The notes under the pieces are model-generated. The model searched no databases and was not told the origin of the DNA. It saw nothing but the letters and a program-made list of their open reading frames with translations. This document shows, piece by piece, positions 1,931 to 36,122 of a DNA stretch of 64,000 bases. How positions within the stretch are numbered: position 1 is the stretch's first letter; every line of letters starts with the position of its first letter. The stretch is from NCBI RefSeq assembly GCF_014199525.1, contig NZ_JACHNU010000001.1, positions 372,001-436,000 of the forward strand, written 5' to 3'. This DNA comes from Conexibacter arvalis (GTDB lineage Bacteria > Actinomycetota > Thermoleophilia > Solirubrobacterales > Solirubrobacteraceae). Both the position numbers and the translations under genes were made by a program.

Positions 1931-4216
1931 CTACTCCGTCCGCAACCCCTCGGGGCGCATGGTGCGGCGCAGGGCGGGGAGGCTGGCGGCGGTGACGAGG
2001 AGGACGACGGCGGCGCCGGCGGCGGTCAGGCCGGCGATGCTGCCGAGGTCGAGGCTGACCGGCGCGCCGACCATCCGCAGCAGCGCCGCGCCGAGGCCGG
2101 CGCCAGCGAGCACCGACAGCGCCAGGCCGAGCGCGACGGGGATCGCCGTCTGCCACAGGATCGAGCGGGCGATCGCGCTCTGCGGCGTGCCGAACGCGGC
2201 GAGGACGGCGAGCGGCCGGCGCCGCTCGCGCAGCTGCTCGAGCCCGCCGACGAGCATGCTCGCGCCGATCAGCGCCAGCACCGCCACCGCGCCGGCGAAC
2301 AGCGCCCGCCGCAGGGTGGCGTACTGGCGTCTGTAGCTGCGGTCGCCCATCGTGAAGACGTCGGCGGTCGGGTCGAGTCGCGCGACGGCGTTGCGGACGT
2401 GCTCGATCGCGTCGGGCGTCGTCTCGTCGAGCGTGACCGACGCGAGCAGCGTCCGCGGCGGCACGGCGACGCCCGCGAGCGCGCCGGGCGTCGCGAGCAC
2501 CGGATCGGGGATCGAGCGGACCGCGCCCTGCGCCGGTTCGGTGCCGGGGAAGTCGACGACGCGCGCGTCGCGCGGCACCGTCCACGCGACCGCGTCGCCG
2601 AGCCGCACCCTCGCGCCCGGTCGCAGCGAGGTCATGCCGTCGAGCAGGAAGGCGTCGCCGTCCGCGCAGCGGCCGACCGGGACGACCGCCTGGAGCGTCG
2701 CGCAGTCGGCGACGCGAACGATCTCGGAGGCGGTCCCATGGGACGCCTCCAGCTGCTCGACCGCGAGCGCGCCGCGCACCCCGGCGCTCTCCCGCAGCGC
2801 AGCCGCGAGCCGCTCGGCGCCGCCGCCGAGTCGGCCGCCGCCGTCGTCTGCCAGCCACACGTCGGCGACCGCGTCGCCGCTCGCCTCCCGGCCGGTGACG
2901 TAGTCGCCCTCGACGCCGGAGAAGGTCGTCTGCAGCGCGATCGCACCGGCGACCGCGACGGCGATCCCGCTCACCACGCGCGCGGAGGCGCCGCTGTCGA
3001 GCTGCAGCCGCCGCGTCGCGAGCTGCCACGCGACGCCACCGCCTCCCAGCCGCCGAACGACCGCCTCGACGAGCCACGGCAGCAGCGCCGCGATGCCGAC
3101 GAGCACGAGCACGACGCCGGCGGCGAGCTGTGCCTCCCCGCCCGACCCCGACGCGGCATCGCCCGCGCCGACCAGCGGGAGCAGCAGCAGCGCGCCGGCC
3201 GCCGGCAGCGCGAGCCGCCACCAGAGGCGGCGGCGGCGCGGCGCAGCGCGGCGGACGAGGCCGAGCGGCTCGACCGTGACTCCGCGCAGCGCGACCAGCG
3301 TGACGAGCACCGCGGCGGCGGGGACGCCGAGCGCGACGGCGGCCGCGAGCGGCACGCTCGGCGTGACGTCGGCCGGGAAGACGCTCAGATCCCAGAGCGT
3401 CACGTCGCGCGCCAGACCACGCACGAGCAGGAACAGCAGCCCGCCGAGCAGCAGGCCGAGCAGCGCCGCGACGAGCGCCTCGCCGGCGGCGATCCGGCGC
3501 GTCATCCGCATGTCGGCGCCGAGCAGCCGCAATGCCGCCAGCCGCCGGTCGCGTGCCTCGCCGCCGAAGCGGACGGCGGCGGCGATGAAGACGGCGACCG
3601 GCACCAGCAGCGCCGTCAGCACGACGACCGCGAGCGCCTGCAGGACCGGGTCGAGCCCCTCCGGCTCGACGTCGGCGCCGAAGCGGTCGATGCGACGGGC
3701 GCCGGCATCGGCGAGCGCGTCGCTGCCGAGGTAGAAGGCGAGCTCGGCCGGTCCCGCGAGGCCCTCGTCGCCGATCGTCCCCGCGATCGGGTGCGGCAGC
3801 CGCTCGCGCAGCAGCGCCCCCTCCTTGGAGCGCAGCAGCGTCGCGAGCGCCGGCGAGACGAACAGCTCGCCCGGTCGCGGGAGGCGGTCGAGCCCGGGCG
3901 GGATCGGCGCCTGCGCTCCCTCCGCTCTCAGCAGGCGGCCGCGGAGGTCGCGGTCGCGGAACTCCCAGTTGGCGTCGGCGACCAGCAGCGTGCGATCGCC
4001 CGCCCGCTGACGCGCCTCCTTGGACGCCGCGTCGGCGCGCGCGGCGTCGCGGGCGTCGCGGCCGTCGATCATCCGCGGGACCGACGCGGCGACGAGCAGC
4101 AGCGCGACGCCGAGCGCGACGCCGACCGCGGTCAGCGCGACGCGCGTCAGCGAGCCGCGGCCGCCGCTGCGCGCCAGCCGCGCCCCGATCGCCAGCTCGC
4201 GCGCCCACGCCCTCAC
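1931..4216 (-). CDS. FtsX/MacB-type ABC transporter permease
   Basis: A 761-aa membrane protein with an N-terminal transmembrane helix (VALTAVGVALGVALLLVAAS), a large extracellular region, a block of three or more helices in the middle and three C-terminal helices: the duplicated FtsX (ABC3 permease) architecture. GTG at 4216 is preceded by GGAGG. It lies 70 bp downstream of the ATP-binding subunit and forms an operon with it and a PadR regulator. The family exports peptides, antibiotics or lipoproteins, or acts as a mechanotransmission module; the substrate is unknown. It is related to, but shorter than, the 850-aa permeases in the three cassettes at 30-57 kb. Confidence 0.88.
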   Translation of the reverse strand: MRAWARELAIGARLARSGGRGSLTRVALTAVGVALGVALLLVAASVPRMIDGRDARDAARADAASKEARQRAGDRTLLVADANWEFRDRDLRGRLLRAEGAQAPIPPGLDRLPRPGELFVSPALATLLRSKEGALLRERLPHPIAGTIGDEGLAGPAELAFYLGSDALADAGARRIDRFGADVEPEGLDPVLQALAVVVLTALLVPVAVFIAAAVRFGGEARDRRLAALRLLGADMRMTRRIAAGEALVAALLGLLLGGLLFLLVRGLARDVTLWDLSVFPADVTPSVPLAAAVALGVPAAAVLVTLVALRGVTVEPLGLVRRAAPRRRRLWWRLALPAAGALLLLPLVGAGDAASGSGGEAQLAAGVVLVLVGIAALLPWLVEAVVRRLGGGGVAWQLATRRLQLDSGASARVVSGIAVAVAGAIALQTTFSGVEGDYVTGREASGDAVADVWLADDGGGRLGGGAERLAAALRESAGVRGALAVEQLEASHGTASEIVRVADCATLQAVVPVGRCADGDAFLLDGMTSLRPGARVRLGDAVAWTVPRDARVVDFPGTEPAQGAVRSIPDPVLATPGALAGVAVPPRTLLASVTLDETTPDAIEHVRNAVARLDPTADVFTMGDRSYRRQYATLRRALFAGAVAVLALIGASMLVGGLEQLRERRRPLAVLAAFGTPQSAIARSILWQTAIPVALGLALSVLAGAGLGAALLRMVGAPVSLDLGSIAGLTAAGAAVVLLVTAASLPALRRTMRPEGLRTE

Positions 4217-4286
4217 GAGCCGACCTCCGCCGCGGAGAGGCGGGCCGCGTCGACGGGCGTCACCGGCGCGATCCCGGGGCGCGCCC

Positions 4287-22636: not shown

Positions 22637-23875
22637 TCAGCGCCAGAGCCCGCTCAACGGCACCGCCCACAGGCGCTCGCCGAGCGGCACCGTCGCGCGT
22701 CCCGTGCAGAGCACCACTCCACAGACGAAGCGGTCGCCGAGGCGGTCGCGCAGATATCGAAGCCCACGGGTGTCCGACGTGGCGACGGTGGCGGCGGCCT
22801 TGACCTCCACCGCTGCGATCCGACCGTCGGCCGCCTCTACGACGACGTCGACCTCCCGCCCGTCGCGGTCGCGGAAGAAGTAGAGGTCGCTGAGCAGCTC
22901 CTCGCACCATCCCGCCTGACGCACGAGCTCGTTGACCGCGAAGGTCTCGAGCGCCCGACCGCCCAGCGAGCCGTCCGCCACGAGCCGTTCGGCCGACGTC
23001 CCGAGCAGAGAGCAGAGCAGCCCGCTGTCCGTGACGAACAGCTTCGGCGTCTTCACCTCGCGTTGACTGAAGTTCCCCGACCACGGCCGCAGCAGGTGCA
23101 CGAGGAACAGTTGCTGGAGCAGCGCGACGTGCGCACGCGCGGTGTTGGGACTGACGCGCATGTCCCGGCCGAGGCTGTCGAAGTTCGCCAACTCCCCGGA
23201 GCGCGTCGCCACCGTCCGCAGGAGCCGCGGCATCGAGCTCGGATCGGTCTGCGGCGCAACGTCCCGGAGATCCCGGCCGAGCAGCGTCTCGACGTACGCG
23301 CGGAAGTACCCCTGGCGGCGCAGGTCGTTGCGGCCGTAGGCGTCCGGGAAGCCCCCGCGCGCGATCGTCTCGGCGTGCGACGCGAGGCCGGGCGACTGCT
23401 CGTAGAGCTGCGGCGGACGCCCCGCGAACAACTGGTCGATCAGCGTTTGCTCGGTGCCATGCAGCTCGCTCTGAGCGAACGGCCAGAGGCGCAGGTACTC
23501 CGCTCGACCGGGCAGCGCGTCCGCGACGCCGCGCTGGGTGAGCAGATCGGCCGAGCCGGTGATCACGAACTGGCCTGGCGTCGGATCGGCGTCCACCACG
23601 ATCTTCAGCGCCAGCATCAGGTTCGGCGCTCGCTGTATCTCGTCGATGATCGCCGGGCGAGTGACACCCGCCAGGAAACCGTCGGGGTCGCGCAGCGCCT
23701 GTTCACGGACGGTCTGGTCATCGAGTGTCACGTAGGCCCGAAAGCCCCGCCCGTCGAGCAGCGTTCTCGCGAGCGTGCTCTTGCCCGACTGACGCGGGCC
23801 AAGGATGGCGGCGACCCGCGTGTCGGCGAGGATCTCGTCGAGCCGAGGTGTCAGGGCACGCCGGATCAACGCCAT
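22637..23875 (-). CDS. AAA ATPase with DUF4143 domain
   Basis: 412 aa. Walker A GPRQSGKST (26-34) and Walker B AIIDEIQ (75-81) of the AAA_14 group, then sensor region FVITGSADLL, and a C-terminal DUF4143 half ending in a PD-(D/E)XK-like pattern (REVDVVVE with AVEVKA). Family members are common, mobile and poorly understood; nuclease or toxin/defence roles have been proposed. Convergent with hrpA, 15 bp apart. Its promoter (-10 TATTAT, 23885-23890) lies under four 23-bp iterons. AGA codons are scarce compared with hrpA, consistent with horizontal acquisition. Confidence 0.85.
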   Translation of the reverse strand: MALIRRALTPRLDEILADTRVAAILGPRQSGKSTLARTLLDGRGFRAYVTLDDQTVREQALRDPDGFLAGVTRPAIIDEIQRAPNLMLALKIVVDADPTPGQFVITGSADLLTQRGVADALPGRAEYLRLWPFAQSELHGTEQTLIDQLFAGRPPQLYEQSPGLASHAETIARGGFPDAYGRNDLRRQGYFRAYVETLLGRDLRDVAPQTDPSSMPRLLRTVATRSGELANFDSLGRDMRVSPNTARAHVALLQQLFLVHLLRPWSGNFSQREVKTPKLFVTDSGLLCSLLGTSAERLVADGSLGGRALETFAVNELVRQAGWCEELLSDLYFFRDRDGREVDVVVEAADGRIAAVEVKAAATVATSDTRGLRYLRDRLGDRFVCGVVLCTGRATVPLGERLWAVPLSGLWR

Positions 23876-23884
23876 GCCGGCAGC

Positions 23885-23890
23885 ATAATA
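23885..23890 (-). promoter_or_regulatory. -10 box of the AAA/DUF4143 gene
   Basis: TATTAT on the minus strand, 9 nt before the ATG at 23875. One of the few near-consensus -10 elements in this GC-rich window. Confidence 0.6.
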
Positions 23891-23895
23891 CCTCG

Positions 23896-23987
23896 GCTGA
23901 TCTTCAGGCGTCGACCTCGCTGATCTGCAGAACTAAGCCTCGCTGATCTTCAGGTGCGCGGGTCGCTGATCTGCAACTCGCGACCTC
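23896..23987. repeat. Four 23-bp iterons upstream of the AAA/DUF4143 gene
   Basis: GCTGATCTTCAGG or GCTGATCTGCA(G/A) starts at 23896, 23919, 23942 and 23965, exactly 23 bp apart. Each unit ends in TC, and the remainder is variable. Units alternate TTC and TGC versions. CTGAtctTCAG within the core is itself an inverted repeat. The array abuts the -10 of the AAA gene and covers its upstream region, so it looks like a repeated operator. Confidence 0.85.
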
Positions 23988-24036
23988 GCCGCTCCGCGAG
24001 CGCGAAGCGGAGCCGCGGATCGCGCGGTGGACCGGG

Positions 24037-35943: not shown

Positions 35944-36041
35944 CGGTCAATAATCCGCAGTTTAGTGGAACAACGCCAGCGGACGGTTGAATCGCCGACA
36001 TCTGCGGCCCCACGGGCGAAGTGGCCGATCGATCAACGACT

Positions 36042-36122
36042 GTCCAAGTTGGACGTTCACCGAGGACGGTCCAATTTGGACGTTCACCGTGGACGTTCCA
36101 CGCTGGACTTCCACCGTGGACT
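36042..36122. repeat. Three 27-bp tandem units carrying palindromes
   Basis: GTCCAA-G-TTGGAC (36042-36054), GTCCAA-T-TTGGAC (36069-36081) and a degenerate third (36096-36108), each followed by GGACGTTCACCG-like sequence, 27 bp apart. They lie between cassette A and a divergent secreted-protein operon and look like repeated binding sites. Confidence 0.75.

Follow-up and report, generated by a model that had tools for sequence, protein, structure and literature searches.

A promoter-overlapping tandem array upstream of a PDC-S01 ATPase gene of Conexibacter arvalis as a putative operator for the gene's own product

Which protein reads the four 23-bp repeats that lie directly upstream of an AAA_14/DUF4143 ATPase gene in the actinobacterium Conexibacter arvalis? 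The DNA analyzed here, hereafter the window, is a stretch of 64,000 nucleotides (assembly GCF_014199525.1, contig NZ_JACHNU010000001.1, positions 372,001 to 436,000 of the forward strand), and all positions given below are those of the window. The original prediction, made from the letters of the sequence, had proposed either cooperative binding of a regulator or control of the gene by the ATPase that it encodes. Our comparison of the array with those of homologous genes supports the second alternative, since the letters of the repeats track the predicted recognition helix of the protein encoded next to them.

The putative operator array occupies positions 23894 to 23985 (minus strand) and is composed of four 23-bp units (23894-23916, 23917-23939, 23940-23962, and 23963-23985). 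On the forward strand, the repeated motif has 12 to 13 conserved bases, TCGCTGATCTkCA, followed by 10 variable ones, and on the gene strand the unit core reads TG[A/C]AGATCAGC(G/C)GA. The exact periodicity that had been claimed is borne out by the four copies of the core GCTGATCT, which start at 23896, 23919, 23942, and 23965, i.e., at steps of 23, 23, and 23 bases. The alternation of TTC and TGC that was also pointed out is real in this array (third core triplet TTC/TGC/TTC/TGC), but it is not general in the homolog arrays, as seen by inspection of the upstream DNA of homologs. A chain finder added a possible, weakly supported fifth unit of degenerate sequence at about 23986-23999 (minus strand). 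The near-consensus -10 element announced beside the array was found as well: a TATTAT hexamer lies at 23885-23890 (minus strand), 15 bases before the ATG, in a nearly leaderless arrangement, and a -35-like hexamer, TCGACG, lies at 23909-23914 (minus strand), between the cores of the two promoter-proximal units. The pair TCGACG(23914)-18-TATTAT(23885) is the sole promoter-like match between 23700 and 24100, and none appeared in 50 shuffles. With this 18-base spacer, the core of unit 1 therefore sits between the -35 and the -10 elements, and the gene starts about 20 bases from that unit. An overlap between a binding site and the gene's own promoter, here a predicted one, is a hallmark of an autoregulatory operator.

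The array is also singular in its genome. The window contains 8 matches to the 14-mer TCGCTGATCTKCAG with at most two mismatches, for 0.85 expected, and 4 of the 8 are in the array, which is the sole occurrence of the two-unit pattern (at most three mismatches) in the whole 5.2-Mb genome. Single 12-mer sites number 20 genome-wide, 3 of them in the array, and the nine sites inspected outside the array all fall within long open reading frames. A search of Rfam returned no known RNA element over the array region, and a CRISPR-like array was rejected in view of the 10-bp variable parts and the location at a promoter.

Iterons adjoining the start codon are indeed present upstream of other DUF4143 genes, as would be expected from the original prediction. 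When 232 genomes of the order Solirubrobacterales were scanned with the two-unit pattern, the two matches found outside the window genome were both directly upstream of homologs of the gene. Most homologs whose upstream DNA was inspected have tandem repeats of their own, in other letters. An array was defined by a chain score of at least 8 at lags of 21 to 24 (nearly all 22 or 23). By this measure, arrays were present at 60% of 89 homologs of the order but in 3.3% of 1834 control windows taken from these loci, and other lags reached the threshold in 0 to 3.4% of the same upstream regions. The 96 array loci typically carry 3 to 5 units, with gaps of 22 (90 cases) or 23 (176 cases) and rarely 21 (6) or 24 (8), and their repeats are diverse, for example attccgatttcgcaggcccctct in five copies (L041), actacagatctgccgaccctctc in about six (L045), attttcccaatctgtccctgttg in about five (L052), and ggggctccagttgcggaagtaaa in four (L109). 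Arrays were also found in Pseudomonadota genomes and at plasmid homologs of Caulobacter, Agrobacterium, Rhizobium, Novosphingobium, Spartinivicinus, and Ruminococcus. The window genome itself contains a second paralog, 31% identical (L005, G000:C1:796789-798024), with its own upstream array of about four copies of agtgttgatccgtgcggatcagt and with a recognition helix, AKTTTIPY, that differs from that of the window protein. The promoter geometry appears to be shared too. With start codons of homologs estimated by alignment to the query, 33 of 60 loci of the order have a TANNNT hexamer that begins at position -13 or -12 relative to the start codon, and almost none begins at neighboring positions. 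A -10 element would be expected here for transcripts that begin at the start codon, and leaderless promoters whose -35/spacer region is covered by the last repeat therefore appear to be the rule in the family. At L052, two spacer sequences take turns between the units (cagggt, ctgttg), as would result if the array had grown by 46-bp duplications, and the TTC/TGC alternation of the window array may have the same cause. The orthologs at three loci in three genomes (L036, L037, and L039) are adjoined upstream by a tRNA-like sequence, gcgcgtagctcagtgggagagcgctcgcttcacacgcgagag...

The repeats change from locus to locus in step with the protein. Repeat similarity is correlated with protein identity between loci (Mantel 0.31, permutation maximum 0.205), and in a blind scan of all protein columns, with overall identity removed, S242 and N244 ranked first, with P243, T245, and R247 in the top 15. 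The scan preceded the structural model, in which AlphaFold then placed residues 242-247 at the N terminus of the recognition helix (243-255) of a winged-helix domain (about residues 212-281, positions 23033-23242, minus strand). In the window protein, this helix and its N-cap (residues 242-255, SPNTARAH..., positions 23111-23152, minus strand) covary with the repeat sequence. Over the 96 loci, 242-247 is the best six-residue window (r of 0.228 versus at most 0.173 in 300 permutations). Among 3998 pairs of proteins less than 45% identical, mean repeat similarity is 2.4 when 0 to 2 of these six residues are shared and about 3.9 when at least 4 are; by this difference between sharing classes (bootstrap interval over loci, 0.75 to 1.94), the window starting at 242 ranks first of 367. 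When every degree of sharing is instead scored by rank correlation, other windows stand above it, since two helices must agree at most positions before the effect shows. At the level of single motifs, helices of the type x-K-T (K244-T245) go with TCC in the repeat at 27 of 28 loci, versus 18 of 68 otherwise (Fisher test, 7e-11), and within this class, judged by eye, residue 243 is D or E mostly with CCGG, G with CCGA, and H, A, or R with CCCA or CCCC. The relation extends across phyla: the proteins of Uliginosibacterium (L008) and of a locus of the order (L038) are 39% identical, both carry DDKT, and their repeats are TCCGGATTGGACG and TCCGGATTaGTCGG, respectively. All these counts are taken over related sequences, and the P values are therefore optimistic. 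As expected of an autoregulatory operator, the repeat sequence thus covaries with the residues predicted to read DNA in the encoded protein.

Homologs that have no direct array provide a second line of evidence. High-scoring inverted repeats between -85 and +15 were found at 26% of the loci without direct arrays and at 0% of the array loci, with 1 to 1.5% in the controls (shuffles and downstream windows). Examples are a palindrome of Moraxella bovis, AAACCTAGTTTAATTTAAGAT-ATA-ATCTTAAATTAAACTAGGTTT, and plasmid palindromes of Azotobacter and Pseudomonas mendocina that end at the ATG. Large palindromes over the promoter or the start codon of array-less homologs were noted at L163, L251, L252, L193, L180, L021, and L133. 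That sites of two forms occupy one and the same place suggests that members of the family generally control their own gene, with direct repeats in one part of the tree. An imperfect palindrome, CTGAATGACTATCATTCAA, also precedes the start of TT_RS11170, on pTT27 of Thermus thermophilus HB27 (L250). A DUF4143 gene of pTT27, TT_P0211, is reported to be upregulated 6.6-fold with a plasmid present in Ago-proficient cells (PMC4406477); the two locus tags were not matched with certainty, and we regard this correspondence as a lead only.

Based on these results, we propose that the array serves as a self-operator, to which the encoded protein binds through its winged helix, most likely for autorepression, a reading that we consider probable. 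It is directly supported by the array, its overlap with the predicted promoter, the occurrence of arrays across the family, the covariation with the helix, and the palindromic alternative, from which we infer physical binding and its consequences. The winged helix of the ATPase would bind the 22- to 23-bp units, probably with one monomer per unit, each monomer next to the other at a distance of about two helical turns. Since the promoter-proximal unit lies in the -35/-10 spacer, a filled array should block RNA polymerase and thereby repress the gene, and 3 to 5 units would give a cooperative response. Candidate triggers of derepression are titration of the protein, for example by incoming DNA, a change in its nucleotide state, or engagement of its nuclease elsewhere. 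Operator and recognition helix would diverge together and would travel between genomes as one unit.

Several observations weigh against this proposal. About 40% of the homologs of the order, and the majority of distant homologs, have no direct array above the threshold. The permutation and Fisher tests leave part of the shared ancestry in place; when a single locus per cluster was sampled, the effect was kept (mean difference, 1.4), with too few pairs in most draws, and in the subset of 26 later-fetched loci alone, the helix did not rank first. Repeats of paralogs within one genome are no more different than expected, so selection for orthogonal repeats is not supported and the repeat letters give no sign of selection against cross-talk among paralogs. 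Finally, the sign of the regulation is deduced from geometry, and an overlap with the promoter would also fit activation.

The gene seems to come and go together with its operator. The site downstream of the neighboring helicase is empty in two genomes (G086 and G084). A third, G085, carries at this place (L235, G085:C23, about 4072-4270), downstream of the same helicase, a relic in which the final 20 codons of a DUF4143 gene (GTTLSLSDRIRAIPLSGLWS*) directly adjoin two operator units 23 bp apart; the rest of the gene was lost by an internal deletion that spared the operator, and not by a clean excision. The flanks of the array loci contain no matching repeats elsewhere (52 matches, versus 56 with reversed matrices). 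Empty sites, relic, and lack of flank repeats thus point to gain and loss of a single-gene cassette with its operator.

These data also bear on other explanations of the array. A separate host regulator could bind it and control the gene, and the promoter overlap taken alone would fit any regulator; we hold this to be quite improbable, given that the repeat letters follow the recognition helix of the encoded protein, which favors self-recognition, that related repeats go with related helices across phyla (L008 and L164 versus L036-L042), that no other such tandem array exists in the genome, and that the gene stands alone in varied contexts. The array might instead be the origin or the copy-control locus of a plasmid-like or integrated element, with the ATPase as initiator in the manner of R6K pi or P1 RepA. 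Tandem iterons of about 17 to 23 bp adjoining a gene, such as are found here with a period of 22 to 23 bp beside the gene for a winged-helix, AAA-fold protein, and the presence of the gene on many plasmids speak for such a replicon, whereas the arrays lie on promoters of the leaderless type, most sampled copies come from genome assemblies and many are clearly chromosomal, Pfam assigns AAA_14 and DUF4143 only and no Rep family, and many homologs carry a single palindrome instead, the form of a repressor site. We give this explanation very little weight.

We give scarcely any to the idea that the repeats are a recombination site or the end of a mobile element with this gene as its sole cargo. 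The empty helicase-downstream site in G086 and G084, the deletion relic in G085, and the common plasmid copies are compatible with it, but no second copy of the repeats lies at the other end or in the flanks, and the relic, by keeping 20 codons and two units, does not look like a clean excision. A functionless repeat produced by chance or slippage, which arises easily in GC-rich DNA, is practically excluded by its family-wide occurrence with a fixed period and position and a changing sequence. One further reading builds on self-recognition: the filled array could represent a resting state in which an NLR-like ATPase-nuclease is kept inactive by sitting on its own gene ("DNA as antitoxin"), with the repeat code marking kin and with cognate incoming DNA, or the stripping of the array by a phage, triggering or aiming the nuclease. 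This is a speculation that we deem unlikely; if true, PDC-S01 would be a one-gene, self-addressed immunity or plasmid-incompatibility system.

The protein presumed to bind its own operator is encoded at 22637-23875 (minus strand) and has 412 residues, with AAA_14 (83.1 bits, cutoff 27) and DUF4143 (144.8 bits, cutoff 28.1) in one polypeptide. It matches the PADLOC model PDLC04790 (PDC-S01) over residues 2 to 412 (E value, 8e-150); a sequence search of the PDB returned no relative, and NCBIfam gave no family above cutoff. The AlphaFold model, built with 76 sequences (mean pLDDT, 96.4; pTM, 0.94), shows an ATPase core, a winged helix (helices 212-224, 232-239, and 243-255; strands 259-264 and 278-281), and a C-terminal domain with E310, D343, E357, and K359. 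Alignment places the Walker A motif, GPRQSGKST, at residues 26-34 (23774-23800, minus strand), and alignment conservation and modeled strand positions identify the four C-terminal residues as a PD-(D/E)XK-type active site (22799-22948, minus strand). G26, G31, K32, D78 and E79 (Walker B), D343, and K359 are invariant in the alignment, and E310 and E357 are each kept in at least 90% of the homologs; by these residues, the Walker A/B and PD-(D/E)XK motifs of the window protein are intact. The gene stands alone between a convergent helicase gene and a small gene adjoining the array, which encodes a collagen-repeat protein (Pfam PF01391; 24037-24636, minus strand), and no conserved neighbor gene was found beside homologs in the plasmid loci, whose contexts are varied. 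Elsewhere in the window, a 27-bp tandem repeat, GACGGTCCAAGTTGGACGTTCACCGTG, is present in 3.1 copies at 36038-36121.

The passages available to us from a recent survey describe PDC-S01 as a fusion of an ATPase domain with a PD-(D/E)XK member, count 29,494 bacterial and 9,986 archaeal copies, rank it fourth among all prokaryotic defense systems, and state that most such candidate systems lack experimental validation (NAR 2026 gkag225, PMC12988326). With tens of thousands of genes, PDC-S01 is listed among the commonest candidate defense systems. A self-operator that can be partly read from six residues would provide a predicted target DNA for many members and a testable recognition code: if self-recognition is true, a DDKTIK-type helix is predicted to prefer TCCGGATT repeats and the window helix TGCAGATC repeats. 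Reporters placed on such operators would reveal the signal that lifts repression, and the operator constitutes a sequence mark helping to trace transfers and decay, as with the G085 relic.

The original prediction held that the control of DUF4143 ATPases had not been described, and we agree as far as the literature passages covered here extend. Those on PDC-S01 deal with distribution only and mention neither operators nor autoregulation, and the titles and abstracts on Rv3179/Rv2008c contain nothing on regulation. Autoregulation via tandem operators is of a known kind; for the AAA_14/DUF4143 family, we found no description in a search that left aside most subscription journals and preprints, so an earlier account is possible.

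Among known systems, the iteron initiators R6K pi and P1 RepA are winged-helix proteins that act on direct repeats of about two helical turns at their own genes, with palindromic repressor sites as an alternative. They belong to a different protein family, and arrays of the window type overlap a promoter and give no indication of an origin function. The operators of type II toxin-antitoxin systems and of restriction-modification C proteins illustrate how a potentially harmful gene is held in check by a protein on its own promoter; here, a single polypeptide would be sensor, repressor, and effector, with no conserved partner gene. The gene does not itself qualify as a type II toxin-antitoxin system, which is a two-gene operon with a separate antitoxin, as it stands alone and has no conserved neighbor in the plasmid loci. 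In structure, residues 1-293 best match archaeal PABY2304 (2qen; Z of 14.7, root mean square deviation of 5.0 over 252 aligned residues), RPP1 (14.6), and SSO1545 (2fna; 13.1), as well as CED-4, and Foldseek also matched an entry of the MalT system. A nucleotide-binding domain followed by a winged helix is common to these STAND/NLR-type ATPases, which include the plant NLRs, and is the domain order of the AlphaFold model, a resemblance of fold and not proof of descent. Unlike them, the window protein adds a C-terminal PD-(D/E)XK domain and seems to use its winged helix to recognize the operator of its own gene.
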